A stretch of 64,000 bases of DNA, from NCBI GenBank assembly GCA_022925895.1, contig JAKSYS010000043.1, forward strand, positions 62,001-126,000, in the 5' to 3' direction. The notes under the pieces are model-generated. The model did no database searches and was not told where the DNA came from. It was given only the letters and a program-made list of their open reading frames with translations. The translations under genes and the position numbers were made by a program. Origin of the DNA: Fragilaria crotonensis (lineage: Eukaryota; Bacillariophyta; Fragilariophyceae; Fragilariales; Fragilariaceae). Every line of letters starts with the position of its first letter. The stretch's first letter is position 1. Of the stretch, positions 2,976-52,520 are shown piece after piece.

Positions 2976-3491
2976 GACACTCGCCTACCCACTGTTGGTT
3001 CCGTCGGTTTTCCGCGTGGAAATTGGATCGCACTTTCTCCCCGAGGGACGAATAGACAATAGACCAGGAGGTTTCGGAATATCTTCTTTTCGACGCTTAT
3101 GTCGACCGACATGAAAATAAGTGAAAACGGTTACGACGACTTTAGTGATTTCCTACGGAATTTCGCATTTGACATACAAACTAAATATTTTTATTCAATA
3201 GATGGTAAACCTATCTAAATTCGCAGTAAGCATGGAATAGTAGAAATGTACGTACGACACTCGCCTACCCACTGTTGGTTCCGTCGGTTTTCCGCGTGGA
3301 AATTGGATCGCACTTTCTCCCCGAGGGACGAATAGACAATAGACCAGGAGGTTTCGGAATATCTTCTTTTCGACGCTTATGTCGACCGACATGAAAATAA
3401 GTGAAAACGGTTACGACGACTTTAGTGATTTCCTACGGAATTTCGCATTTGACATACAAACTAAATATTTTTATTCAATAGATGGTAAACC
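2976..3491. repeat. 280-bp tandem duplication, second copy split by the retroelement
   Basis: Copy 1 is 2976-3255. Copy 2 starts at 3256, is interrupted after 3491 by the retroelement, and finishes at 13264-13310. Both begin GACACTCGCC. The junction GGTAAACCTATCTAAATTC is intact in copy 1 (about 3204-3222). In copy 2 its left half lies at the element's left end and its right half just after the element's right end. Small ORFs on both strands show no protein signature. Confidence 0.9.
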
Positions 3492-3925
3492 TCCGCGTAC
3501 CTACAGGTCAAGATGGATACTGGGGCACAAGAGACAGTACACCGGTAACTTATAATATATGTTGATTCGATTCACTCCTTTTCTACTACGTCTGACACAT
3601 GCACCGCTTTGCAAAAAAGGTTCTATCATGACGTAGTAGTGGCCATCGGTGGTCCACAGATCATGTGCCAACAATACTTCTGTTGCTGGACTACAGAAAA
3701 GGAACAAGACAGATTTTGTCCGTGAGTTACACACCAAGCCATCAGGTTACGTGAAGGCTGCCTTTACCGATGGAAACCAGTTACTGAGAAGTGATCAGTT
3801 ACCAGTTACTCATCAAAAGGGCAGCAGGACGACACACCGTTCACTCTTTTTGGCTCTAGCCTTTATCTTCGGACCGTACATCCAAGGCCTATCGCTAGCG
3901 AAGCCATCAAGCAGTTTTTATTTTC
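3490..3925 (+). repeat. A1 terminal repeat of the retroelement
   Basis: Nearly identical to 12289-12722 (A2), differing by a two-base length change in a T run. It begins CCTCCGCGTACC and ends in a TTTTTATTTTC tract. It should hold the element's promoter and leader. Confidence 0.88.
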
Positions 3926-3942
3926 AAGCAGTTTCATTGACC

Positions 3943-6552
3943 ATGTCTGACGCCGATTCCGTGTTGGACTCACTCATGGATGACGCCACTGGCGTCTCTT
4001 TTGTGGTTGTAGCGGGTGAGCGTGATTCTCTCCCTCCCTCGCCTTCCTTGGCGGCGGCTCGTGTGGCGGGGGTTGTGAGTGGTGTTCAAGGTACGAAGTC
4101 GGGGGGGAAATTGTATTCTGTTGTTAGCGTCACGGGTTCCGATCGTTCGCTTTGTTTTGGTGTTATTGGTTCCGGCGGAGCTTCGTTTTGCATCAAGAAA
4201 GGATGTGCCATAAGGTCGCATGATGATATGAAGATTTCGTTCCAAGGCAAGGAAGTGACGTGCATGTTTATCTGCCGCGGGGGAAGTGGAAACACCAATA
4301 TCTACTCGGATCCATGTGTAGAGGAGGAACGAGTTCCAGAGTCTGTCAGGAGAGGATGGTTGACGCAGCAGAAGACGCTTGGAGAATGGGGGCGAGCGTT
4401 TAGAGCCGTAGAAAATGCGGATGATGCCAAGGCATCTATGGAAGAGATAAAGAAAGAAGTCTCTTTCCTGAATGATACATCAAACTTCCGAACGCCTTCT
4501 AAGAAGCGCAAAGAAGGGATGATGAGCGGTGAAGGAAGGGGGTCGTTGGGAAACATCGAATTTGTGGGACATGTTCGAACCCTCCCGGAGGATTTGTCAA
4601 AGGAGCTGGACGAGGTCATTGGTAGCGCCATGGCCAAAGGGCTATTGACCAGGATTGTGGCGCGATTGGAGTCAAGCATGGTAATGCAAGGATCAGCGTT
4701 AGAGGCGGTGGCAGAGTCGGCGTATAAGCGATTCTTAACCAACGAGAAAGACTTGCGAGCCGTGTCGGGAGCGGTGCAGAATGTCCAGACTACGGTGGGA
4801 CAGCCCATAGAGTTGGACTCCAGATTTGATGCACCCACACTCTGGAGTTCTACGTCATTCGTGGCGGAAGAAGTCATTAGAGTGACATCTAACTTGGCAT
4901 CATTGGAAAACGACTTGATGCCTATGAAAGCCACGCTGCGTGCAGTCAACGAAGAGTGCAGTCGATTGGGTAAGTCAGGACAATCTGACAAGATGCTAAA
5001 GGTGCTGGTGATGGTCTCTACCAAGGTCAAAGAAGCGTCAAACGAGATTGTGATGTTGAAGGCCAAGGTATCAGAACTGGAATCAGGGATGGTGGCTGCA
5101 AATCTGATCGAAGGGAGAGGATCTCGGGGAAGGAGAGCATCTTCTAGAAAGGTGGGAGATGAAATGGACGAGCTCATGGACATGTTTGACTCAAGTTACG
5201 TGGAGAAAGAAGATAGAGAGTTTGTGACACTGGAGAAGGAGGCTGAACCAGGTCGAGCAGGTTCCAGGGAAGTTGAGTCAATGCTCAGGAAGCTCGCGTC
5301 TGATTTAAAGTTGCTCACGTCAGATGTTGGGTTGCTTAAGGCCGGTGCAGAAGACAAGTCGGTGAAGTTTGCCGGACTTGGATGGCGCTCAATTCTGGAT
5401 TGTCAGGAGTGGATCAAGGGAAATTTCCCGAGCTATAGATACGGGTTGATTATGGACCCGTTGTTGATGCTGGATCGGGTTTTCGGATCAGACGATGCAG
5501 AGGCTGACAGTCAATTCAAGACTCTGGAGTCACGCGTGAAGTTGAAGATTGCAACTGGTGCGGAGGCGGCGGCAATTAAGGCTTTATACTTCAAACGCCC
5601 ACGACTATTTCACAAGGGACAGGTGTCCATGTCGACAGATCGCCACAAGTCCAAGTTGAACAAGCTCACAGACCACAAGGTGTGGAAAGCAGGAGGGGAG
5701 GGTGTCCACAATTACATCGTTCAGCGAATGAACTTGTTGCTTTCTACAATCTCCCAGGATATTGGTCACGTCTTTGGTGGCGATCCAAAAGCACAATTAT
5801 TGGCGACAATGTGTTTGAATGCAACTATCACATTCGTGACTCAGCTGCTCGCATTTGTGGATACCATTTACGACAAGTTGGTGGTATCCTCGAAGTTCAC
5901 GGCAGAACAAGGGTGGTCTTTGACGATGAAGATCCTCGACAGAATCTGCGAAGACTTGTTTGGCCCGAAGGAAGGGGTGGCTGTAGCCATGAACGTGGAA
6001 GACCCAGCTTCGATTTGCGCCCATATGCTGTGGTCGTGTTTCAAAACGCATGATATCATGACCACTTATATGGAGTTCAACTTCGAGAATCATCCGGCAA
6101 TCTCAGCGGAATACGTAAAATTTCTGGCTACTAACTCTGGATTCGACAAGGTGGAACGTTTGGAAGGTGTGGTCTCGGGAATGAAAACCCAGGTGGATAA
6201 AGCAGGGTCAGAAGCGACAAAGGCTCGGACCATCGCTGACGGGGCAGCAAGTGCTGGGTCTGCGGCGGCGAAGGCTGTCGCGGAATTGGCTAAACGAGTT
6301 GGAAAGTTGGAGGATAGGGGAACAGGTGACAAGGAGGAGCACACCGGAAACATGACTGAACACAAATCAGACAGGAGTGGCAGGGTTGAGAGTAATGTTA
6401 GTAGCAGCAGGATTGACGCTACTACTAGATCTACGACTGTGAAGCTCCCTCTGGTGTTTTTGAGTCATGAACAAAGTACAGGAGGGCTCTCTACTAGCAG
6501 TGCTGGTACCTTGGAAGATGCAACTTATCAGCGTCTGAAGGTCTGCAAATGA
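3943..6552 (+). CDS. Retroelement ORF1, gag-like structural protein
   Basis: The frame is about 870 codons from the ATG at 3943, just after the A1 repeat; it is open further upstream through A1, but this ATG begins the non-repeat part. The start is acidic (MSDADSVLDSLMDDATG). The middle is rich in predicted coiled-coil heptads, with a compact region near the centre of the frame that carries a basic SKLNKLTDHKVWKAG stretch. A second coiled coil near the C-terminus holds alanine-rich heptads (ATKARTIADGAASAGSAAAK). No zinc knuckle is seen. Position and size fit the first ORF of DIRS-order elements, which probably packages the RNA. The role is inferred from position, not from homology. Confidence 0.65.
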   Translation: MSDADSVLDSLMDDATGVSFVVVAGERDSLPPSPSLAAARVAGVVSGVQGTKSGGKLYSVVSVTGSDRSLCFGVIGSGGASFCIKKGCAIRSHDDMKISFQGKEVTCMFICRGGSGNTNIYSDPCVEEERVPESVRRGWLTQQKTLGEWGRAFRAVENADDAKASMEEIKKEVSFLNDTSNFRTPSKKRKEGMMSGEGRGSLGNIEFVGHVRTLPEDLSKELDEVIGSAMAKGLLTRIVARLESSMVMQGSALEAVAESAYKRFLTNEKDLRAVSGAVQNVQTTVGQPIELDSRFDAPTLWSSTSFVAEEVIRVTSNLASLENDLMPMKATLRAVNEECSRLGKSGQSDKMLKVLVMVSTKVKEASNEIVMLKAKVSELESGMVAANLIEGRGSRGRRASSRKVGDEMDELMDMFDSSYVEKEDREFVTLEKEAEPGRAGSREVESMLRKLASDLKLLTSDVGLLKAGAEDKSVKFAGLGWRSILDCQEWIKGNFPSYRYGLIMDPLLMLDRVFGSDDAEADSQFKTLESRVKLKIATGAEAAAIKALYFKRPRLFHKGQVSMSTDRHKSKLNKLTDHKVWKAGGEGVHNYIVQRMNLLLSTISQDIGHVFGGDPKAQLLATMCLNATITFVTQLLAFVDTIYDKLVVSSKFTAEQGWSLTMKILDRICEDLFGPKEGVAVAMNVEDPASICAHMLWSCFKTHDIMTTYMEFNFENHPAISAEYVKFLATNSGFDKVERLEGVVSGMKTQVDKAGSEATKARTIADGAASAGSAAAKAVAELAKRVGKLEDRGTGDKEEHTGNMTEHKSDRSGRVESNVSSSRIDATTRSTTVKLPLVFLSHEQSTGGLSTSSAGTLEDATYQRLKVCK

Positions 6553-6579
6553 GGACACAGAGAAGCTTTTGTAGAGAAA

Positions 6580-8883
6580 GTGTGTGGTGTGAGCTTTGAA
6601 GGGCTCCCGGTGTGGTTGTGGAGCATGAGGCTTGCTGAATGGTCAACCATTTACATTACTGATACGGACGACCTCAAGCTTCGACAGCATCACCTGACGA
6701 CGTGGGAGTTTGCACGATCAAAAGTGGCAATAGTGGATGCGAAGGCGGTGGGAACACTGCTAATGGATATGTGGCTGGTAAGTGGTTCACTGGCGTTCGT
6801 GACGAGTGCGATCGGACCACTGGGGACACCCAAACTGGCATGGATGTCGGAAGGCGGACGCCGGAAGCCATCATTGGCGGACGGCTGGGAATGGATGCAC
6901 GTATCGCACGCAATGGTCGGGGGGGTCACCAAGGCAACTGGGATATTTGGGTCGGTCGGGATGGCGCCGATAGAGATTCTCAAAGATCCAATTCGTCGAA
7001 CAATTGGCCATGTGATTAAGTACTCCGAACGCCCAACACCGTGTGAGTTGCCGGTGTCTGGGCTACGGCACTACACAATTGAGGACCGGTTGTCGCTTCA
7101 TCATCTTCATCTGCCTGTTGTTTTTGCCAGTGGATTTTCGCGGACCGGATGGGGACACCGTCGGCTTGTGAACGCGGAGCTGGAACACGCGTTTGATTTG
7201 CCTAGTTTCGTCTCGTGGGAGTCCCTCAAGGGTGCAAAGGTTGTCCCCATTCACCTCTGTCGCGTAGTTATGGATGGCGCGTTAAAAACGTTGGGGGGGG
7301 CGGTTCAGGGGCGGGGAGCAGCACGAGCAAGGAAGACGAAGGTCGTTACCCCGACAGCAGAAGTCGGGCCTGTCGTCTCTCCACTCCCATTGGATGAGCC
7401 CTGCTGGTTGCCCCAGATGAAGAAATGGCTTCCGGGAACATGGACCGACACTTCCATTGCAGATAAAGCCGTCAAGTCGGACAATGCGGCGGTGGATTTC
7501 CATCCATGGAATCAGCGTATCATGTTGATTCTCCCGTGTACCTCGGCAACTATTGTGTCAATGGAGGAATTGGCTTTGAGAATGTGGCGTCGCCGTTTGA
7601 CCATGTCGTTTTTACAGTACCTGACACGGCGACATGGAGCTAGCTGGGCCCTTAATGTGGTGGGCGCCACCGATTCTGGCAAGCGTAAGAGGGTTCTTGC
7701 CCTATCAGGGCACGGGCCGGCGAACAAGGCGGGGGGTATTAGGGATATCGACCTATCGGAGTTAGGCCGGGATCTTAAAAGGGGGCGATTGATATTAAGG
7801 CAGGTGTTGCGGAGCAAGTGGTGGGAGTGGTCATATGGATCATCCCTTTTCTTTTGGCGATGGAACGGTGCTGAGCAAGTCGCAGCGGCTCGCGACGGGA
7901 TGCGGATGTACGTTCAGAGTCAGTTGCCTGTCGGACGAAAGCGTCAAAAAGTTAGGCTCAAACCGGAGGTGCAAGCTTTAGTGGCTGAAAAAATTGAAGC
8001 GATGTGCAAGCGATACTACTTGGAATCATCAGGGCATGTGGCTAATTCTCTCGACTACTTCGCAGTGCCAAAAGGCGATGACGATATCCGGGTGGTCTTT
8101 GACGGTTCATCTTGTGGTTTAAATAAAACACTTTGGGCGCCAAATTTCTTTTTGCCGACAGCTAATTCGGCTTTAATGTTGATGACGTTCGGGACATGGA
8201 TGGCGGACATGGACTTTGGGGAAATGTTTCATAACTTTCCTATGGAAGAGAGGATGCGGCGCTGCTCTGGGGTTGAGTTTGATACAAACACTCCGGGAGG
8301 CGGGAGGATGACAAAATTATTCAGGTGGACACGATTGTTCATGGGTATGCGACCAAGCCCATATAATGCCGTTCGGTATTATTATTGGGGAGAGGAATTC
8401 GCGCGAGGGGATCCATCGCTGCTCAAGAATCCAATGGGCTACGATTGTGTCCGACTGAACCTACCTGGAATGAATGACTATGATCCTATGCTGCCAAAAG
8501 TGATGAAATGGCGGTCAGACTTAAACGTGGTGGCAGGGGATGTGCTGACATTTGTTGACGATGTGCGAATCACGGGGTACTCAAAAGAGAACTGCCATGA
8601 GGTGCATCGCCAGTTTGCGAGCAGAGTCCAGTACCTAGGGATGCAGGATGCACCCAGAAAGTTTCGACCTCCATCACAGGCGCAAGCGGGAGCTTGGACC
8701 GGCACCATTTTTAAGATCACGCCGGACTCTATCTCCAAGTCGGTGTCACAGGAAAAATGGGAAAAAGGAAAACTCATATTAGCACAGTTGCGGGTTATGT
8801 TGGAGGCAGAGAAGGGCGGTCGTCGACCGAAAGCGTCTGGAAAAGGAGACGGGGTTCTTAAACCATCTTGCCATGACATTTGA
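6580..8883 (+). CDS. Retroelement ORF2, reverse transcriptase
   Basis: The second half of this frame has the reverse transcriptase core: VVFDGSSCGLNKTLWAPNFF, then the palm A motif WMADMDFGEMFHNFPM, an aromatic-rich FRWTRLFMGMRPSPYNAVRY, and the catalytic LTFVDDVRITG. The FVDD form and the following KENCHEVHRQFASRVQYLGMQ stretch are typical of DIRS-order enzymes. The first half (about 350 codons) is not recognised. It overlaps the next ORF by 11 nt, and such short overlaps are usual between ORFs of these elements. Confidence 0.82.
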   Translation: MCGVSFEGLPVWLWSMRLAEWSTIYITDTDDLKLRQHHLTTWEFARSKVAIVDAKAVGTLLMDMWLVSGSLAFVTSAIGPLGTPKLAWMSEGGRRKPSLADGWEWMHVSHAMVGGVTKATGIFGSVGMAPIEILKDPIRRTIGHVIKYSERPTPCELPVSGLRHYTIEDRLSLHHLHLPVVFASGFSRTGWGHRRLVNAELEHAFDLPSFVSWESLKGAKVVPIHLCRVVMDGALKTLGGAVQGRGAARARKTKVVTPTAEVGPVVSPLPLDEPCWLPQMKKWLPGTWTDTSIADKAVKSDNAAVDFHPWNQRIMLILPCTSATIVSMEELALRMWRRRLTMSFLQYLTRRHGASWALNVVGATDSGKRKRVLALSGHGPANKAGGIRDIDLSELGRDLKRGRLILRQVLRSKWWEWSYGSSLFFWRWNGAEQVAAARDGMRMYVQSQLPVGRKRQKVRLKPEVQALVAEKIEAMCKRYYLESSGHVANSLDYFAVPKGDDDIRVVFDGSSCGLNKTLWAPNFFLPTANSALMLMTFGTWMADMDFGEMFHNFPMEERMRRCSGVEFDTNTPGGGRMTKLFRWTRLFMGMRPSPYNAVRYYYWGEEFARGDPSLLKNPMGYDCVRLNLPGMNDYDPMLPKVMKWRSDLNVVAGDVLTFVDDVRITGYSKENCHEVHRQFASRVQYLGMQDAPRKFRPPSQAQAGAWTGTIFKITPDSISKSVSQEKWEKGKLILAQLRVMLEAEKGGRRPKASGKGDGVLKPSCHDI

Positions 8884-10219
8884 GGTGGTAACACCATACC
8901 TGAAGGGGTTTTACTTGACGTTAAATTCTTGGAGGTCTAAACGTGACGAGGGTGACTGGAGAATGTCAGACAAAAGGTGGAAGCGCATGCTGTTCGCACA
9001 ATTTGAAAGAGGGGAAATATCGGAAACGGAGTTGGACATCGAATTGTTTGGAAAGGAGGAGAGGTCTGTTCCTCAAACTGTGACGGCAAGCATAAGTTTG
9101 GTTGAGGATGTGAAAGCGCTGGAGCTGATTTTTAATCCTCAGCGGGTGTCGGTAGTCGGAGTCAGGTCCAAACAAATAATAACTGTCATTTATGGGTTTG
9201 GCGATGCGTCAGGAACCGGACTTGGAGCTACATTTACATGCGGGTCGGGACTGAATTTTCGCGTTGGAGTGTGGGGATCCAGGGAAGATCCGGAGTCGTC
9301 AAATTGGAAGGAATTCACTAACGTGGTGGAGTCGTTGGAAGAGGAAGGGGCGGAGGGCAATCTGGACCGCGCAGAAGTGTTTATGTTCACGGACAATTCC
9401 ACTGTTGAGTCCTGCGTGTCACGAGGGTCGTCATCATCTCCAAAGCTCCTGGAGTTGGTGGTCCGGATTCAAGCGCTGTCAATGAGAGTGGGGATAAAGA
9501 TCCACGTATTCCATATCGCCGGAACCAGGATGATAGCGCAAGGTACTGATGGCGTTTCTAGAGGCTTTTTGGGACAAGGGGTTATGGATGGCGCAATGAT
9601 GAGCGCTTTCGTGCCGATACATTTATCTGCGATGGAAAGATCGCCACTGGATCTAGTCCCATGGATTAGATCATGGGCGGGAAAGGAGACAACCATTCTG
9701 ACCGAGATGGGCTGGTTCCAAGAAGGGCACGATGTGGAAGGGTGGAAGATTGGGGAGGATGGGTTCTCCCGCCCTGAGATAGCGAGGGATGGAAAGACAT
9801 ACGTGTGGGCGCCGGCTCCAATGGCAGCAGAGGTGGCGTTAGCCGAGATGAGAAAAGCAAGAATCAAGCGTCAGAAATCAGCCCACGTATTCGTTTGTCC
9901 TCGTTTGTGTACTGGTCAATGGGTGCGGCACTTGTACAAAGCGGCTGATTTTGTGTTTGAAGTCCCGGTGGGCTCAGAGATGTGGTCCAGCTCCATGCAT
10001 GAACCATTGCTAATCGGTATTCTTTTTCCGTTCATCAGGGTCAAGCCATGGCAATTGCGAGGAAGTCCTAAGATGTACGCAGTGGGAAGGCAATTGCGTC
10101 AAGTGTTCAAAGAAACGCCAGTGGACGCAAGCAATCTTTTGCGCGAATTTTGGGCATGCTGTATCAACCTCAAAGATATGTCAGAACTTGTGGTGCGGAA
10201 GTTGTTATACTTCAAGTAG
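8873..10219 (+). CDS. Retroelement ORF3, RNase H domain and C-terminal region
   Basis: The stretch YGFGDASGTGLGATFTCG, the acidic MFTDNSTVES, and the histidine-bearing KIHVFHIAGTRMIAQGTDG have the order of a DIRS-type RNase H, whose role is removal of the RNA template during element copying. The C-terminal third is not recognised; it is rich in aromatic and basic residues and may be a linker to the recombinase part. The frame overlaps both neighbours slightly, so expression is probably coupled. Confidence 0.75.
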   Translation: MTFEVVTPYLKGFYLTLNSWRSKRDEGDWRMSDKRWKRMLFAQFERGEISETELDIELFGKEERSVPQTVTASISLVEDVKALELIFNPQRVSVVGVRSKQIITVIYGFGDASGTGLGATFTCGSGLNFRVGVWGSREDPESSNWKEFTNVVESLEEEGAEGNLDRAEVFMFTDNSTVESCVSRGSSSSPKLLELVVRIQALSMRVGIKIHVFHIAGTRMIAQGTDGVSRGFLGQGVMDGAMMSAFVPIHLSAMERSPLDLVPWIRSWAGKETTILTEMGWFQEGHDVEGWKIGEDGFSRPEIARDGKTYVWAPAPMAAEVALAEMRKARIKRQKSAHVFVCPRLCTGQWVRHLYKAADFVFEVPVGSEMWSSSMHEPLLIGILFPFIRVKPWQLRGSPKMYAVGRQLRQVFKETPVDASNLLREFWACCINLKDMSELVVRKLLYFK

Positions 10220-10235
10220 TTTGCCACCTTTCTAC

Positions 10236-11588
10236 ATGGCAGCTGGAGATCAACCGATTGCAGATAAGGATGACGAGGACAGGATCTTATCAGGGTGGGC
10301 ACCCAGGAAGTCAGATTTGGGTCGGTTCACCTCGGCGCGAAACGGTGACAACCTGATGGTCCCGTTCGAGTGCGATTTTTGTGTGTTTGGAAAATTGTTC
10401 GATCATACTCCTGACCCGGCAAATGAAAAGGATATCTTTGCGTTAGCTTGTATTCGAAGAGTTATACTGGATGCCTTTTGGAGTCGAGCTCGGTCCACGG
10501 TCGATTCGAACACGGCTAAGGTTCGGGAGGGGTTAGCGTTATCAAGGGACATGGGTATGCGAGGCCCCGCTGAACCCCCAGGTCCATTGCCAAAGACTGA
10601 CCACTGCGGTTATGAGGTGGCAATCCAGATTGTGGTGTCCTCGTTGGGAGCAGGACGGTACTCAGAAACCCACAAACAATGGGACACGGTTAGGCGCTTC
10701 AGATCCGCGTACTCCAACCAGGTTAGAGCGGCGCGGGACGCAAATGCAAACCCCATTGTGTTGACGGACGCCGAAGGAAAGTCGTACCAGCGTATTGGGC
10801 GAGACGCATGTGGGTCCTTGTGGTTTTATAGATTCACTCTGGGATGTCGCAAGAGGATGGGCCAGGACTGGCGGCCCAATCAGGCCATCAGCGTAACTTT
10901 GATCCACGAAGTCCTCAAGAAGACTGAGGAACGGGCGAAAAGAGAACAGGATCTAGAAGGGCGTCAGAAATGGGTTCTAGCTGGTGGATATTTTTGCATC
11001 TGTTTCGTGCTTTCCCTGAGAAGTCCGGAGGGACTTATGGCGGATCTCGAGGGTTTGATCAGGTACCACGACGAAGGTAGCACCGAAGTAGTGATCCCAT
11101 TGCTTGGCCGATTCAAAGGAGAGCATCATGCGAAGCAGCATCTTCTGACTTCGAAGGGTACGACTGGTTCCGGAATAAGGATGAAGCAATGGGTGCGACG
11201 TGTGTTGGCGGTTCACAAAGCAAGTAGAAGAACAACGGGACCGGTGTTTGTCAATCCTGAAGGTTATCAGTCCTCCACAGCAGAAATGAACGAACTGTTC
11301 TTGCAGGTGCTCAGTGAAATCTACGAAGAACAACCCGACATGTTTGGGATCGATGTCAATGGAGCAAGTGACTTACCGGACAAGTTTAATGTATTCAGAT
11401 CTTTCCGCCGGGGATCCGAGTCAAGAGCAGTCGCTATGAAAGTGTCCGAGGCCGACAGATACGTTGTGAATCGGTGGAAGAAGAAGGAGGCAGCAGGAGC
11501 AAACAAGACCTCGCACGCTATTGACCAGCATTACGTCGACATAACGTTGGTCAAGGAGGCGTTTCTGAGGTATACGGAGGCCATGTGA
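10236..11588 (+). CDS. Retroelement ORF4, tyrosine recombinase
   Basis: The frame carries an N-terminal helical part and a C-terminal catalytic region with the spaced Arg / His-x-x-Arg / Tyr-like pattern of DIRS-order recombinases: TSKGTTGSGIRMKQWVRRVL, FNVFRSFRRGSESRAVAMKV, then NRWKKKEAAG and a final IDQHYVDITL. This enzyme class joins a circular DNA copy to the target without target duplication, which is what the flanks show. The ATG at 10236 is chosen as the start; the frame is open somewhat upstream, overlapping the previous ORF. Confidence 0.82.
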   Translation: MAAGDQPIADKDDEDRILSGWAPRKSDLGRFTSARNGDNLMVPFECDFCVFGKLFDHTPDPANEKDIFALACIRRVILDAFWSRARSTVDSNTAKVREGLALSRDMGMRGPAEPPGPLPKTDHCGYEVAIQIVVSSLGAGRYSETHKQWDTVRRFRSAYSNQVRAARDANANPIVLTDAEGKSYQRIGRDACGSLWFYRFTLGCRKRMGQDWRPNQAISVTLIHEVLKKTEERAKREQDLEGRQKWVLAGGYFCICFVLSLRSPEGLMADLEGLIRYHDEGSTEVVIPLLGRFKGEHHAKQHLLTSKGTTGSGIRMKQWVRRVLAVHKASRRTTGPVFVNPEGYQSSTAEMNELFLQVLSEIYEEQPDMFGIDVNGASDLPDKFNVFRSFRRGSESRAVAMKVSEADRYVVNRWKKKEAAGANKTSHAIDQHYVDITLVKEAFLRYTEAM

Positions 11589-11796
11589 TTGAGTAACTGG
11601 GAGATCATGCTTGCAACTCCAGCAACGTTTGCTGGGTGCCGGCGGTTCTTGTGGTTAGGAAGGTGACGCTGCGTCACGCTTCTCGGAGGCAAAGTTGGTT
11701 GAGAGCTAACCTCCGCTTTGATGTCGATTACAGGGGCCATTATTTATGCAATGCCTTCCCCGCCGGTCAAGGGAAGGTCTGGTGGTTCTCGTGGTG
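11589..11796. other. Retroelement spacer between ORF4 and B1
   Basis: About 200 bases of non-coding DNA that probably hold the 3' untranslated part of the ORFs. No structure beyond short GT-rich runs is visible. Confidence 0.5.
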
Positions 11797-12291
11797 GGGG
11801 GTTTCGAGTTCAAAGTCCGAGTTATAAGTTCGAGCGATATAACTCGGACTTGGAAGTCACTATTTTGGACCGATCGATCGAGCGTGACGCTTCTGGGAAG
11901 CAACTCACTCGAGCAGGTACATTTCCTCCCGACATCATTCCCGCTCGGCCGTTGACTTAGGTCCGACGAGATGGAATGGAAGTGGGACTCAAGGAGAACA
12001 ACCCTTTCGGCTCAGGACAAGAACTTTCGCGAACCCATGCGTCGATGCATGCCCTGAGGAGGGATAGATACAGAACGGTACTTGGGTACTGTGCTACTGT
12101 TCCCCCATTACACTGGTTGATTCATACTACCTATATGAATTGACCTATGAGATATCATCAACGACAACCGCAAGGTCAGCCATCAAGCAGTGATTGGTTT
12201 GATCTTGCAGGTGGCTAGGTTACTACTAACTAGCCGAATCAATATATATTTGTGAGACCAGTTTATTGTCGAAACGTGAAAGCAGAATCCT
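11797..12291 (+). repeat. B1 repeat of the retroelement
   Basis: Matches 12770-13263 (B2) with a single-base length difference. It contains TCGAGTTCAAAGTCCGAG and ends AAGCAGAATCCT, overlapping the first bases of A2. Confidence 0.88.
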
Positions 12292-12722
12292 CCGCGTACC
12301 TACAGGTCAAGATGGATACTGGGGCACAAGAGACAGTACACCGGTAACTTATAATATATGTTGATTCGATTCACTCCTTTTCTACTACGTCTGACACATG
12401 CACCGCTTTGCAAAAAAGGTTCTATCATGACGTAGTAGTGGCCATCGGTGGTCCACAGATCATGTGCCAACAATACTTCTGTTGCTGGACTACAGAAAAG
12501 GAACAAGACAGATTTTGTCCGTGAGTTACACACCAAGCCATCAGGTTACGTGAAGGCTGCCTTTACCGATGGAAACCAGTTACTGAGAAGTGATCAGTTA
12601 CCAGTTACTCATCAAAAGGGCAGCAGGACGACACACCGTTCACTCTTTGGCTCTAGCCTTTATCTTCGGACCGTACATCCAAGGCCTATCGCTAGCGAAG
12701 CCATCAAGCAGTTTTTATTTTC
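12289..12722 (+). repeat. A2 repeat of the retroelement
   Basis: Second copy of the A1 terminal repeat. It lies between B1 and B2, as expected for a split-direct-repeat element. Confidence 0.88.
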
Positions 12723-12769
12723 CCCACCCACCATCCCTTTCTTTCCTCCGCGAGTGGTGCTTTCCCGGA

Positions 12770-13263
12770 GGGGGTTTCGAGTTCAAAGTCCGAGTTATAA
12801 GTTCGAGCGATATAACTCGGACTTGGAAGTCACTATTTTGACCGATCGATCGAGCGTGACGCTTCTGGGAAGCAACTCACTCGAGCAGGTACATTTCCTC
12901 CCGACATCATTCCCGCTCGGCCGTTGACTTAGGTCCGACGAGATGGAATGGAAGTGGGACTCAAGGAGAACAACCCTTTCGGCTCAGGACAAGAACTTTC
13001 GCGAACCCATGCGTCGATGCATGCCCTGAGGAGGGATAGATACAGAACGGTACTTGGGTACTGTGCTACTGTTCCCCCATTACACTGGTTGATTCATACT
13101 ACCTATATGAATTGACCTATGAGATATCATCAACGACAACCGCAAGGTCAGCCATCAAGCAGTGATTGGTTTGATCTTGCAGGTGGCTAGGTTACTACTA
13201 ACTAGCCGAATCAATATATATTTGTGAGACCAGTTTATTGTCGAAACGTGAAAGCAGAATCCT
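12770..13263 (+). repeat. B2 terminal repeat of the retroelement
   Basis: Right end of the element, a copy of B1. A 47-bp spacer separates it from A2. Its end runs directly into ATCTAAATTCGCAG, the right half of the empty-site sequence. Confidence 0.88.
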
Positions 13264-13310
13264 ATCTAAATTCGCAGTAAGCATGGAATAGTAGAAATGT
13301 ACGTACGACA

Positions 13311-13548
13311 AATTCGGCTAGAAAAAAATGAAAGAAGGCTTGGAAAAATGCACTGGTATCGACTGGTATGACAATCCGATGGGAATGAATTCTTCACGTT
13401 TGATTCTTATGGAATTACTTGAGATACTCCGTCGCATTCGAATGGAATCTTCTCATTAGGAATCGTCAAGATACATATGTTTTCGAGCTGTTTCTTAAAT
13501 TTTCTTAAGTTTTCTCAAACTTTCTTAAGAAACTTTAAGAAGATTTGA
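13311..13548. other. Intergenic, CTTAA/CTCA-rich tract
   Basis: From about 13490 the DNA is a loose repeat of TTTCTTAA and TTTCTCAA words. The same words resume on the far side of the MITE (about 14015-14115), so the MITE landed inside this tract. Confidence 0.6.
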
Positions 13549-13959
13549 GGGCGTGTCCATTCGGGTTTTTTTCACATCCAAGTTTCCAAGTTTCCAAGTG
13601 ATCGAACAAGTCGAATTTGGGTTCGATTTGCTTGGTCGATGTAGTGTCCATTCAAAAGGAGAATCGAGTTCCGAACTCCCAAGTTTTACTTCCGAGTAGA
13701 GTTGAATGCTTGGGAGTAGAGTCATTTCAAAATTTTCTGGCATTGCGAACATGAGTGTCGTATCCACCGGATTAGCTGGTACAGGCAACAGGTTATGAAA
13801 CTTGATTTCTGAACTTAAAATCTCGTTAACTTGGATGTCCAAGTTAACGAAAGACGAGTCCCACGAAACACAAAATCCAAGTTGAATCACGAGTCGACTA
13901 GTTCGATCACTTCGAAACTTGGAAACTTGGATGTGAAAAAAACCCGAATGGACACGCCC
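13549..13959. mobile_element. Harbinger/Tourist-like MITE, 411 bp
   Basis: The ends are long inverted repeats that begin GGGCGTGTCCATTCGGG and continue through TTTTTTTCACATCCAAG for roughly 60 bp. The flanks show a 3-bp direct repeat TGA (13546-13548 and 13960-13962). GGGCGTGT-type ends with a 3-bp duplication fit PIF/Harbinger non-autonomous elements. A 121-codon minus-strand frame runs through it but has no protein signature and is best read as chance. Confidence 0.78.
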
Positions 13960-13962
13960 TGA

Positions 13963-14642
13963 GTTGCTTATAAAATCTCAAATAATCTACGTGAACCTGG
14001 TAATAAAATCGCACCTTCTTAAATTTTCTTAAATAATCTCAAACTTTCTCAATCGGACGTGAGAAAAAAGAAGTTTCTCATATTTTCTTAAACTTTCTCA
14101 TTCTTTCTCAACTTTACTTAACGCAAGATTCCTATCTGTAACTCTTGTTCGAAAACAATTTGTCCGAACGATAGTCTGCCAACGAGGACAAAATGAATTT
14201 ACCGTATTGTAGAACAAGCTCGTGTGTAGGAAGGTGAAGTTGATATTGGTATGACACAAATACTTAATAGACAAACATATTATACATAATCATTCAGGAT
14301 TTTTACATAGAAGTCTCTGAGGTGCGTCACGTTTTGACATGAGATCTGATCGTAAATTAAAGAATTTCGTGGTTGAGACATTTTCAATATGCACTGACAA
14401 ATTCTACCAATCCTGTACGGAGTACGATGCACTATGTCGCAGGAATTCCGGAACCTCCAGGTACTTGTACTGTACACACATCACATGCATAAACAAAACA
14501 TGCACAAATGAAACATACCTACCGTAGTACACGACACACGACCATCAATGTTCAACTACGAGTACAGAATACTAAAATACAGTACGTTCGAGTACAGTAC
14601 AAGTACAAAGTCCTTGTCACGCCCTATGTATATTTATTGATA
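13963..14642. other. Intergenic AT-rich DNA, no gene seen
   Basis: It holds the rest of the CTTAA/CTCA-rich tract, then AT-rich unique DNA, then a stretch rich in GTAC words (about 14465-14610). Confidence 0.5.
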
Positions 14643-27318: not shown

Positions 27319-28644
27319 TTAGTTGCCTGCAGCTGCGGCCGCAGCAGGCGGGGCAGTCTCCCGGAACCATGTGTAGTTTCCATGTCGCCATGAATTGAAA
27401 ACTATGTTTTGCGTTAAGTCATTTGCTGCATTCAGAGTCCACTGAACAATATCAGCCCTTGAAGGCGGTGACGTTGTTCCAGAAAGGGTACCTTCGTTAA
27501 TCATCCACGCTTCCCACTGTCTTCGAATACGGTCTTTAAAAGGCTTATTCACCCCGATGTCAACTGGTTGACATAAAGGTGTGCAGCCGCCAGGGATATG
27601 CTCCACTTCAACACCCAAATCTTGGATTCTTGCAACAACCGATGCCATCATGTGGCATCGGTAAGAATCAAGAAAAAGGATTGGGACAATTCCCTCCGGA
27701 GCCGTTGCAATGTACGGTTGTAGCACCTTCGAAACCCACATCATCATCACTTCTTCATCCATCCACGCGTTTCCCTGACATGCATAAACCATGTCGCTTG
27801 TATAACCAGGAAATTCATTTCGTACAATCCGACCATTTGGAGTTCCTTTGAAAACCAGTAGTGGCTTCAGAATCTTACCGGATGCTGTCACTGTCATAGC
27901 AAACGTTGCACGCTTCGTATCGTTTGTTGATTTCCGAATGTGCACGGTTCGACGACCGACAACCTCCAATGTCTTGTTGTTATTGTAGGTAAATGGGATC
28001 GGCGTTTGATCCATATTCAAGATGTAATCTTGATGCCGGGAAGGCTGATCCGCAACTTTTGGTCGAGCAACTGATATCATGTAATCCAAAGCCTCTGCGG
28101 CAGTTTCCGTGGGGGAGCGCTGAGATTCACGAGTTCCAAGTCTAAATACAAGACCGTGTGTTCGTACAAACCTCCTTGCAGCACTGTACTGTGCTGTTCT
28201 TGACTTTTGGCTGAATGCTGGACTGAGTTGCGCCGCTTTCATCATAACAATTGAAATTGAAACAGGCATTCCCTGTTCACGAAGTTCAAAAATATATCGC
28301 AGGAGCTCATCTTGTATTGGACCCAGCACAGTTGAACACGGGCCAGGACAAAGGCTTCTTGCCTTGCTGTTCTTTGCCTGTTGCATGGCATCTGCCTGTT
28401 TCGCCCATACACCGTACATGGTGTGATGGATGTTTAAATCCTCGCAAGCAGCCCGTTGACTCATCCCCATGTCGATCTTCCTTCGTACATTGCGTACGAT
28501 TGCAAGCTTTTCCAGTAATGAGAAGCGCCGTCGCCCCCTACTTACTGGTGGCGGAGGTGGGCGTGCCTCCGACCGTGATGGATGGATGGGCGTGGATTCC
28601 CCGATTGGTGTTGTTCTTGCAATGGCAGTACTGCTGCTGTCCAT
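27319..28644 (-). CDS. pogo-type transposase, DD35D
   Basis: 441 residues from ATG 28644. The N-terminal part is Pro/Ser/Arg-rich, then a psq-like helix-turn-helix (RRRFSLLEKLAIVRNVRRKI, with SQRAACEDLNIHHTMYGVWA) and a CENP-B-like DNA-binding region. The catalytic core has D1 in YILNMDQTPIPF, D2 in PILFLDSYRCHM, and D3 in CTPLCQPVDIGVNKPFK. There are 35 residues between the second and third aspartates, so DD35D. The enzyme cuts and pastes the element at TA sites. It ends at 27319-27321, next to the 3' end of the plus-strand ORF. Confidence 0.9.
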   Translation of the reverse strand: MDSSSTAIARTTPIGESTPIHPSRSEARPPPPPVSRGRRRFSLLEKLAIVRNVRRKIDMGMSQRAACEDLNIHHTMYGVWAKQADAMQQAKNSKARSLCPGPCSTVLGPIQDELLRYIFELREQGMPVSISIVMMKAAQLSPAFSQKSRTAQYSAARRFVRTHGLVFRLGTRESQRSPTETAAEALDYMISVARPKVADQPSRHQDYILNMDQTPIPFTYNNNKTLEVVGRRTVHIRKSTNDTKRATFAMTVTASGKILKPLLVFKGTPNGRIVRNEFPGYTSDMVYACQGNAWMDEEVMMMWVSKVLQPYIATAPEGIVPILFLDSYRCHMMASVVARIQDLGVEVEHIPGGCTPLCQPVDIGVNKPFKDRIRRQWEAWMINEGTLSGTTSPPSRADIVQWTLNAANDLTQNIVFNSWRHGNYTWFRETAPPAAAAAAGN

Positions 28645-46159: not shown

Positions 46160-48720
46160 GCATTGTCATCACAAGTCACAACTAATCAAGAGGCCTCCAC
46201 TATTGAGGAACCTGCCTTAATTTCCTCTATAACCTTAACCTTGCTGTGCAGCTCAGAATATAATGTAGGCTTATCTCAGTCAGACCCGACAGTTTATGTG
46301 TCCAATCAAATGCACCCAAAAAAGTGTACGGTTTGTACCAATGCAGGCAGGATTGATTCTCAAGTTGCACCCAACCAAGTGTGCTGTTAACAGTGCAGGC
46401 AGGGTTGATTTGTCTAGTGAGAAGTTCATCATAGCTTTTGCATCAGGATCCTTATGCCAATTGACTATTGAGAAATCAGCCTCAAGAACAGAACTGGTGC
46501 CAGGCAAGACTGTTGCAACAGCTCCTGTGCATAATTTGAGCTCTTTACACTCACATTAAGCAGGCTTTAGCAATTGTTAAGTGAATTGGTGTCTTTGTTT
46601 GCATCTATTGGTGCACCTGCTGCAAAAATTTGCTCTGCCTCACAAGCAATTGTTGAGTGAATTGGTGTCCTTGTTTGCCTCTATTGCACCTGGTGTTAAA
46701 GTTTGCTCTGCCTCACAATAAGAACAATTCATTGTCCAAAGCAACACATCACCAGTATTCTCATTCACATTGTTTCTATGCTGGCTGCTCTGAAAGTTTC
46801 CAAGCTCATCATCTGGCTGAGCTGTAACCCAGCCAGCATCTTGATTGGGGAGGAAGGTCATCTGTAGCATTAATTTTGCATGTCTCAGGTGACAACAGTA
46901 TTTGATATGCCACATACCAGGGTAGCTGCAGAATTGGTCTATGGTGAAATAACAATAGCTTACTTGTGGTACCATCAAATGATTCCTCACCATCTTGATG
47001 GTGAAATTGCATCCTCTTCATCAGGAGCAAAGTGGTCTTGTTGCACAGATATCTTTCGTCTAATCTCTAATATGACAAACCTCAATCCCAGCTTTTCTGT
47101 ACCAGTAAAGGGGGTTTTCATTGTTTTTTGTTATTCACAGATTGTGTGCAACAAGTCTTGCAGTATACTATTCTTGTACACAAGGACTTTGTTAAGGTAC
47201 TCATGATTTTCTTGAATTGTTTCAGTGATTTGTCGTCAAGAGAGATCATCAAGTTTCAGTTATCATTCATCAATTTGTTCTGTTGACCTTGAAGATGAAA
47301 CACATCAAGCAGCTTAGCAACTATCCCACATGTGGTAACTAGGCTCCACCAGAGTGTGTGGTTGTGCTGTTGTTTTGTGGACATTTGTTGAAAGTTCTTC
47401 CATTCAGATTCGATTTAATGTGAATGTCAAGAATGCATGAAAACAGCATTATACCCAGCACCTCAAGACCAATTGAGGTTGTGGCAACATTTGCACGGAT
47501 GTCTTTGAATGTTCGGTGGAGTTAATATTGAATGTTAACATTAAGTACTGCTTACAACAACCCAACATTAATGAAAGCGTTGAGATGGATTGGAAAGTCC
47601 ATTCTTGGGATGGAGGTTTTTGATTGTTCTTCAAGATAATATTGAATCCATACACCAAAAAGGTACGCAGAACTAGCATTACTATTACCCGCATCTAGAC
47701 CAATTGAGAAGGCCATTGTATTGCATTGACGTCATCCAAATATAACAGATTTGTTGTAGCACAGACACTTAGGCAAATCAAGGGTAATTGAACATGAATT
47801 AAATGCTGACAAGTCCAAGCACTCCCATTCCCATATTTAGTACTCTGGCTGAATACAAGGAAACACCAGTGTCATTTGAGAAATACTAGTCATGAATATC
47901 ATACTTTTCAACAAGATAAATCTGAGTGTCATATTATTCAATACTATCCACTTCAACTTGATTGATGCTTGCCTTGCAGCATGTACTATGTGTTAAATGC
48001 TGACAAGTCCAAGCACTCCCATTCCCATATTTAGTACTCTGGCTGAATACAAGGAAACACCAGTGTCATTTGAGAAATACTAGTCATGAATATCATACTT
48101 TTCAACAAGATAAATCTGAGTGTCATATTCTTCAATACTATCCACTTCAACTTGATTGTTGTTTGCTTTGCATGTATGTGCCTTCATTGTCTGTTCTGCC
48201 ATCCACATCAAAGCTGACACTGTATTTTTCTTGCTTGGCAACCACCCCCTCCTAGCTAGGGGACAATTGCAAGCTCAGGCAGCTGCAGACCAGTTGTCAA
48301 AGTTGTCAACATTGCTGCTTCATAAAATTAAATGACTGCTGTTTGCAAGGCTCAGCTGCAACAGCAAATTTGCAGGTACTCTGAAGCTTGGATTTGTTCA
48401 TGCTCTTCCTCACTGCATGCATGTGCTCCATGGGAAGAAGTAGATTTGTGTCTAGTAGGTCTCCTTATCTAGCTACCGCATATCCTCCTTGAGGGCAAAT
48501 TAATGGGGAGTTCTCAGAGCAAACCTTGTTGTTCAAACTTCATCAAATTCAAATGGATGACTTTTCTGCACTGAGAGAAATGCCAAATGTTGTGCAAACA
48601 TCTTTTGATTTACTGCATTTCCTCTTCATTTTTGAAGAATGTTCCATTTCTTGAATGCTACTGTACAATTACAATTGAGTTATCCTACTAAACTTAACTT
48701 ACACAGCACATCATGCATAA
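46160..48720. other. CpG-poor decayed DNA, origin unknown
   Basis: Rich in TG and CA and poor in CpG, with only small broken frames. It has an 83-bp-type tandem pair near 46573-46725. The 194-bp pair at 47801-47994 and 47995-48180 starts AAATGCTGACAAGTCCAAGC. Composition is like the decayed piggyBac region, so it is probably an old element, but no family can be named. Confidence 0.5.
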
Positions 48721-51179: not shown

Positions 51180-52520
51180 CAATATCTGTCGAGCACACCG
51201 GATATTCATCTGTTGGGGCATCTGTCGAGCACACCGGATATTCTATCTGTTGGGGCATCTGTCGAGCACGTCCGATATTGAACCCGTTGGGATGCATGTT
51301 GAGATCCAGATAGTTATCGAATTCGCCGTTTGTAATGCCTTCACATTTGTCACAAAGTAGACTACCTCTGACGTAAACGTACTTCAGTACGTACTCTAGG
51401 TACAGTACCTGGTACCTTTCGAACAGAGATGCTCAATGCATATACGCAACAGTACCGTTCGAAGTTCGAACAGAGCCATGCTCAATGAACGTATGCGCAA
51501 TATTACCTGCACGTTGCAATCTCTGCGTCGTCGGATGTTCGACATGATCAATGCGTACGGTGACATCATTAGGTAGCCTGGCATCCTTGGGTTGCACAAT
51601 TTTGTCGCGTCAGTTTTTGGCGTCAGATGCGTCCCTATTCACAATATGCACTACTAAGACCTGCACAATTTTCTTGTACCTGGGGTCATGAATGAAGCTT
51701 TTCACTCAGGTTTCGACATGATCAATGCACAGGATGACATCATTAGGTGACCTGCACTATTTTCTTGTACCTGGCGTCATGAATGAAGCTTTTAACTCAG
51801 GTTTCGACATAATCACTGCATATGATGACATCATTAGGTAGGTAGCCTGGCATCCGAGGTTGAAAAATTCTGTCGCGTCAAGGTAGCCTGGCATCCTTAG
51901 GTTGCGCAATTCTGTCAAGTCGGTATAGAAACCATATGAACTTGGAAAGGACCACAGAATCCGACCGCGGATACGCCAGTGCTCCGAGCGTCACTACGTG
52001 TGCTGTCGGCGCACACTAACACACCGACCACCGGGTTGCCTGGCATCCTAAAGTTATACAATTCTGCCGCATCAGATCTTGACGTAGATGCGTCGGGTTC
52101 ACAACATGCATTGTGTACCTACACAATTTTCTTGAGCCTGGCGTTATGAATTAATGAATTTGGAAAGGACCACAGAATCCGACCGCGGATACGCCAGTGC
52201 TCCGAGTGTCACTACGTGTGCTGTCGGCGCACACTAACACACCGACCACCGGGTTGCCTGGCATCCTAAAGTTATACAATTCTGCCGCATCAGATCTTGA
52301 CGTAGATGCGTCGGGTTCACGACATGCATTGTGTACCTACACAATTTTCTTGAGCCTGGCGTTATGAATTAAGCTGTTAGGCCGAGTTAAAGGTCGTTAT
52401 AGAAATCATATGACTTGAAATCACCACAGAATCCGACCGCGGATATGCCAGAACTCCGATTTTCTCACTACGTATGCTGTTGGCCCACACTAACACACCA
52501 ACCGCCGCCTCGCGGTTGGC
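51180..52520. repeat. Satellite-like complex of tandem repeats
   Basis: 51186-51285 has three copies of a 36-37-bp unit with CTGTCGAGCACACCGGATAT. From about 51430 on, loose repeats with TTCGACATGATCAATGC and GATGACATCATTAGG lead to a 218-bp unit: copies near 51942 and 52160 and a partial third near 52420, sharing CACAGAATCCGACCGCGGAT and AGATGCGTCGGGTTCAC. The pattern fits repeated unequal crossing-over. No gene is seen. Confidence 0.8.

Follow-up and report, generated by a model that had tools for sequence, protein, structure and literature searches.

We analyzed a 64,000-bp stretch of the genome of the diatom Fragilaria crotonensis (the window; positions 62001-126000 of contig C383, from a 62.1-Mb assembly in 881 contigs) in which a tyrosine recombinase (YR)-type retroelement lies within one of two tandem copies of a 280-bp sequence. 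The assembly gives 61 match rows for PF00504, the family of chlorophyll a/b-binding proteins, in keeping with a photosynthetic host. All features described here are on the plus strand unless stated otherwise. The two copies are a direct tandem duplication (Tandem Repeats Finder: period 280, 100% matches). Copy 1 (2976-3255) is an uninterrupted 280-bp unit that reads ...ATGGTAAA-CC-TATCTAAATT..., with CC at 3210-3211. Copy 2 is split directly after the same CC by an insert of 9,769 bp (3492-13260). Its left part (3256-3491) is identical to 2976-3211 and ends in ...ATGGTAAA-CC (3490-3491), followed by the first bases of the insert, TCCGCG. On the right side, the insert ends in CAGAAT and is followed by CC (13261-13262) and TATCTAAATT; the rest of copy 2 (13263-13306; 13261-13306 with its CC) is identical to 3212-3255. 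By script comparison, 280 of 280 bases agree between the copies, a match that is far beyond chance. The sequence GACA is found directly 3' of each copy, and this 4-bp microhomology marks the tandem junction (positions 2976, 3256 and 13307). The original prediction, made from the sequence of this stretch, had described a 280-bp tandem duplication with a continuous copy 1 and an element at that exact point of copy 2, and the comparison bears this out. The extent that it gave, 2976-13310, is larger than the element: the body is 3492-13260 only, and an end at 13310 adds the last 44 bp of copy 2 and the GACA that follows them.

The element has the Ngaro-like arrangement A1-ORFs-B1A2B2 (ORFs, open reading frames). 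Its left end is a split direct repeat, A1 (3492-3925), that is found again as A2 (12291-12722; 432/434 identical), and its right end, B2 (12770-13260), is found again as B1 (11797-12288). B1 and A2 are joined by CC (12289-12290) in the sequence AAT-CC-TCC (12286-12293), which presumably repeats the junction of the circle. Neither pair of repeats has mismatches: A1 differs from A2 by 2 nt of indel within a run of T, and B1 from B2 by one 1-nt indel. Because both pairs are without substitutions and have indels in homopolymer runs alone, the insertion is recent. The terminal repeats are direct, and the only inverted pair of at least 25 nt between 1500 and 15000 falls outside the element. We rejected a long terminal repeat (LTR) retrotransposon: there is no LTR pair, and split direct repeats are present instead. 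The B repeat also contains an imperfect 53-nt palindrome.

There are four long ORFs between A1 and B1. ORF1 (3943-6552; ATG at 3943 in a frame open from 3649, ending in TGA) is in the position of gag, and its function is assigned by position only. ORF2 (6580-8883) contains the reverse transcriptase (RT) motifs MDF and FVDD. It has a weak match to RVT_1 (E 0.0024 for the whole ORF and 0.00038 for the RT part, both under the curated bit cut-off). RVT_1 was matched in seven of the nine RT proteins of the family that were scanned, and residues D151/D153 and D268/D269 are invariant. The RT protein had no significant match in the PDB. From these motifs, the element is predicted to encode the reverse transcriptase that is characteristic of the DIRS order. 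ORF3 (8873-10219) has the motifs GDAS, TDN and GTDGVSRG, which we take to be RNase H (RH)-like; Pfam gave no match. ORF1 and ORF2 are in one frame and are separated by the TGA alone (6550-6580), which suggests readthrough or reinitiation. No methyltransferase family was found in scans of the element ORFs. PF05869 had no match inside the element, and the one match in the genome, on C38, is sub-threshold.

ORF4 (10188-11588) encodes a tyrosine recombinase-like protein. We aligned it with 12 relatives from the same genome, and residues R278, K310, R404xxR407, W430 and Y449 are each identical in all 13 proteins. The assignment of this putative enzyme comes from these conserved residues together with the outcome of integration (below). 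The motif WCGxCY at the start of the YR frame (10188-10234) overlaps the end of ORF3, upstream of an ATG at ~10234, and its W, G, C and Y are conserved in 13/13 proteins. This overlap suggests a frameshift fusion of RT-RH to YR.

We found that the dinucleotide CC is present at every junction of the element. In the window, the left junction is AAA-CC-TCCGCG, the right junction AAT-CC-TATC, the internal B1|A2 junction AAT-CC-TCCGCG, and the empty site in copy 1 AAA-CC-TATC. CC thus lies on either side of the element, and copy 1 has it a single time; counted naively, the flanking sequence is CCT, since the target happens to continue with T. The element's own ends also meet at CC (B1|A2), and for this reason CC is best read, from the sequences, as a recombination core common to the circle and the target rather than as a duplication. 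The statement in the original prediction that no bases are duplicated is therefore not literally correct, because CC or CCT borders the element on each side and has a single counterpart in copy 1; the same CC is also found once at 12289-12290. A search for a target duplication at the flanks, proposed there as a refuting test, finds CC/CCT on both sides and would misfire if used naively. For annotation, the internal B1|A2 junction should be inspected before a shared core is called a target site duplication.

The same core was seen in other members of the family. The internal junction was AATCC|T in 9/9 elements read, as expected if it is the copy of the circle junction typical of the DIRS order. 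The right end was AATCC in 13/13 distinct targets. The left flank ended in C in 9/9 distinct targets and in CC in six of these; the exceptions were AC in two (C414 and C680) and TC in one (C596 with C496). Among the eight targets with both flanks read, five had CC on both sides. CC makes up 4.6% of positions in the window, and by our own arithmetic five of eight targets are unlikely to have CC by chance (~1e-5). In these counts, C496 and C596 (same right flank) were taken as one target, as were C98, C10 and C360 (same left flank). The right end of C360 is truncated; C560 contributed a left end only, and C58, C133, C456, C350 and C64 a right end only. We left out C700, C658 and C389, whose left ends fail to align at the first bases, and a further six contigs that had matches to B but were assigned no locus (C9, C307, C218, C244, C60 and C30). 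The family also includes isolated AB units on C98 and C10 and a third, 3'-shortened, on C360. One locus (L054-L056; C456:22466-27567) has the order B1-A2-B2-A3-B3, and each of its two internal junctions reads AATCC|T; the extra AB unit looks like the product of unequal exchange or of integration at the element's own junction. Viral contigs were scanned for relatives of the element and none was confirmed.

The target of the insertion is itself a dispersed repeat. About 190 bp of each 280-bp copy is the left end of a terminal-inverted-repeat element that starts near 3067 in copy 1, where its truncated left end spans 3067-3259 (the last 4 bases are common with the start of copy 2). The element that carries the insertion spans 3347-14458. 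It runs to 3491, from 13263 to 13549, and from 13960 to ~14458, and has two interruptions, the retroelement, which is ~145 bp inside it, and a 410-bp inverted-repeat element. It looks like a ~1-kb non-autonomous terminal-inverted-repeat transposon (GGAGGTTYCGGAAT...GGAATTCCGGAACCTCC). The left part of this host repeat has at least 41 matches in the genome (40 of 51 candidates scored). Two of them are at this locus, and some of the other 39 are perhaps pieces of one copy. We read the best 8 of the 39, and all eight run through the insertion point without the retroelement (one, L068, reads CCC-ATC there). Empty sites are thus not confined to copy 1, as the target belongs to a dispersed repeat that has other empty copies.

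We looked for empty sites for all eight targets with both flanks read and found clean ones for five: those in the window and on C67, C353, C98 and C414. The empty site for C67 is on C57 (98%), the one for C353 is on C829 (93%), and the one for the unit on C98, C10 and C360 is on C300 (98%; the right flank matches over only 30 bases). Each of these has CC once. Eight copies of the C67 target repeat were fetched. At the junction, the one on C57 (L084) alone agrees, and L086 is 10 bases short; the other six (L087-L092) are too diverged. The empty site for C414, also on C829, has AC once. In all five clean pairs the core occurs once in the empty site, and these insertions appear to be without target site duplication, as in the DIRS order. 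The family therefore provides several filled and empty pairs in one genome from which a minimal core (one C, usually CC) and the lack of a target duplication can be read.

Based on these results, we consider it highly probable that a DIRS-order, Ngaro-like element integrated here by tyrosine recombinase-mediated exchange of a circle at CC. The element would have been reverse-transcribed from an RNA intermediate, and its DNA would have been closed into a circle that joins its right end to its left end through AAT-CC-T, the sequence copied at B1|A2. The putative tyrosine recombinase would then have carried out strand exchange between this circle and CC in the left arm of the dispersed host repeat. 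The arm would have been within one of two identical 280-bp tandem units, the duplication having come first, and the other unit would have stayed as the empty site. Of this history, direct observation covers the two 280-bp units and the exact point of insertion, the layout of the repeats, the core that is shared and the empty sites at other insertions. Recombination at a very small shared core accounts for the junctions better than does a staggered cut that is then filled in.

Several results weigh against this interpretation. CC is missing from the left flank at three of the eight targets with both flanks read (AC at C414 and C680, TC at C596), and the core may thus consist of no more than one shared C. 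C496, which has its right flank in common with C596, has lost bases at its left end. For C596, the nearest empty site, on C676, has an 8-base difference within a stretch rich in GAGTAC; it is ambiguous and fits neither shared-core recombination nor target duplication cleanly. No empty site was found for C223 (40 of 108 candidates scored) or for C680. The enzyme is a further difficulty. ORF4 and its relatives had no tyrosine recombinase match in Pfam, NCBIfam, PHROG or the PDB, and the few matches that they had in these libraries were weak and unrelated to tyrosine recombinases. The ORF4 protein gave no alignment to lambda integrase with hhalign, and its single-sequence AlphaFold model (pLDDT 33) was too poor to use. 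The spacing between W430 and Y449 is 19 residues, longer than the 9 residues between H333 and Y342 of lambda Int. The original prediction of a DIRS-order element with a tyrosine recombinase is partly supported, by the A1-ORFs-B1A2B2 layout, the RT motifs and the internal junction; the recombinase remains putative, called from the residues conserved in 13/13 proteins and from the integration outcome, and library models, solved chains and structure gave no match to the recombinase fold.

The order of events also bears on this interpretation. The original prediction took the locus to show a before and an after. Empty and filled copies are indeed side by side. In contrast, the temporal reading presumes that the duplication came first, and the sequence cannot order the two events because the 280-bp copies and the repeats of the element are all undiverged. 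By the same mode of integration, the element could have inserted first into a single 280-bp region. The tandem would have formed afterwards, when two homologues or sisters, one empty and one filled, underwent unequal exchange or template switching at GACA. This order predicts the same end structure, and the GACA microhomology at the junction is in keeping with it (4 bp or more is expected by chance in ~1.6% of cases, by our own arithmetic). However, a filled and an empty chromosome would have had to recombine through 4 bp of homology, and no empty allele is documented: we saw no second contig covering the flanks (one candidate; none was full-length among 40 of 609 candidates scored, and the remainder of the query matched only repeats). 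We regard insertion first as possible, if doubtful.

It is less probable that the tandem is an assembly artefact in which sequences from an empty and a filled allele were joined. The copies are identical and a single contig was seen for the locus, both of which this explanation would accommodate. However, the join would rest on 4 bp of homology, well under what assemblers usually need, and misassembly through such an overlap is unlikely. Such duplications also occur elsewhere in the window: two more two-copy tandems are at 47799-48172 (period 194, 97%; 4/180 mismatches) and 51936-52372 (period 218, 98%; 3/219 mismatches). In view of these, a duplication that coincides with an insertion is not extraordinary. 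In any case, the conclusion about the insertion point is independent of copy 1, since the eight other host-repeat copies that were read are also empty.

A more speculative idea, which we doubt strongly, is that the 280-bp tandem was made during integration, by a fork or repair switch at GACA from the unfilled to the filled sister at an unresolved recombination junction. If true, integration would have stored an empty copy beside the filled one. We checked 250 bases of each flank at other insertions (40 of 108 candidates scored) and found no adjoining empty copy on C67, C353, C223, C98 or C10; the matches were the flanks themselves, except for two partial right-flank matches ~90 kb away on C98.

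It is very improbable that the element integrated by cut and fill, in the manner of a DDE-type integrase, and that CC or CCT is the resulting target site duplication of 2 or 3 bp. At the window locus alone this mode would look identical to recombination at a shared core, with CC/CCT on both flanks, and the five of eight targets with CC on both flanks could be taken the same way. One of the 13 proteins in the ORF4 set has a weak match (E 0.071) to rve_3, the core of a DDE integrase; this counts on the same side, and we took it as chance. No DDE integrase family was found in the four ORFs of the window element, three of which were scanned twice. A target duplication does not account for CC at the internal B1|A2 junction of all elements read, and the flanking dinucleotide lacks the free variation expected of a random duplication. 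C414 is the informative pair. It has AC on the left flank and CC on the right, and AC occurs a single time in its empty site. A 2-bp duplication would have placed AC on both sides, and for this reason C414 speaks directly against such a duplication, barring later mutation. The target's first base is kept on the left, the element's own C is on the right, and one C is shared, which fits recombination at a one- to two-base core. The only escape that we see is a later mutation of the right end, and all targets that were read have AATCC at this end. C414 is old, and its YR frame is broken. The match of its upstream flank to C829 begins only at position 1093 of 1270, within a few hundred bases of the insertion; as far as seen, the empty site of C414 is a shared repeat rather than an allele. 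Based on C414 and the internal junction, we set the target duplication aside.

It is scarcely credible that element and target were duplicated together and that copy 1 later lost its element through precise excision by the recombinase. Excision across CC by a tyrosine recombinase is conceivable in principle and would restore a clean site, but this requires an extra event and a 10-kb duplication, and the sequence gives no call for either.

Recombination of a circle at CC would place the element among known systems. The Ngaro elements of the literature are characterized by split direct repeats and the lack of a methyltransferase (PMC9210276; PMC4157794 for the criterion). The element in the window, with split direct repeats, B1A2B2 downstream of YR and no methyltransferase family found (PF05869 and ORF scans), appears Ngaro-like on both counts. 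The Ngaro elements of Cafeteria burkhardae (PMC8547959) share with it the layout A1-[ORFs]-B1A2B2, the order gag, RT-RH and YR, the isolated AB units and insertion inside another mobile element, as well as, by the criterion of the two papers above, the lack of a methyltransferase. In contrast to those elements, it is 9.8 kb rather than ~6 kb, has four ORFs as read, and has a YR that Pfam missed. The likeness is one of structure, and PMC4157794 warns that structural features are homoplasious.

DIRS1-like elements offer the closest published account of the integration step: PMC3266345 describes recombination between a 3-bp junction of the circle and a genomic sequence identical to it, with no duplication of the target. 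The window element would have in common with them the copy of the circle junction inside it and insertion at a short stretch of identity. DIRS1-like elements differ in having inverted terminal repeats, mostly NTT termini and a methyltransferase (same paper), whereas the window element has direct split repeats, CC and no methyltransferase match; the inverted terminal repeats and internal complementary regions of the DIRS1-like layout do not appear to be present. PAT, TOC3 and Kangaroo elements, some of them in algae, have the same split direct repeats (A1-B1-A2-B2) and, according to PMC4157794, normally a methyltransferase domain, which was not detected in the window element; a PAT/TOC3 assignment would lack this component. 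The same paper reports a Pat1-like lineage that lost its methyltransferase, and so a PAT-type placement could still hold despite the missing domain. Published reports also list DIRS-class elements in a diatom (PMC5859163) and DIRS/Ngaro-like elements in a brown alga (PMC3145265).

Cryptons have a tyrosine recombinase and insert by recombination at a short core, as predicted for the window element. They are not known to carry a reverse transcriptase, and we set a Crypton identity aside because the window element has one. Our results fit a known mechanism and not a new one, in an element of a known but uncommon kind, here with CC in place of NTT and with a YR protein that was missed by the models tried. 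The untouched copy adjoining the filled copy displays how such an element inserts, and is a neat example of that mechanism.

The host repeat carries a second nested element. This 410-bp element (13550-13959) has inverted ends (GGCGTGTCC...GGACACGCC), with inverted arms at 13529-13630 and 13878-13979, and is flanked on both sides by TGAG. It is missing from 8/8 other host-repeat copies read, one of which (L065) also lacks 3 bases at that point. Elsewhere in the window, a 441-amino acid ORF on the minus strand (27319-28644) matches the DDE_1 transposase family (E 4.9e-22).

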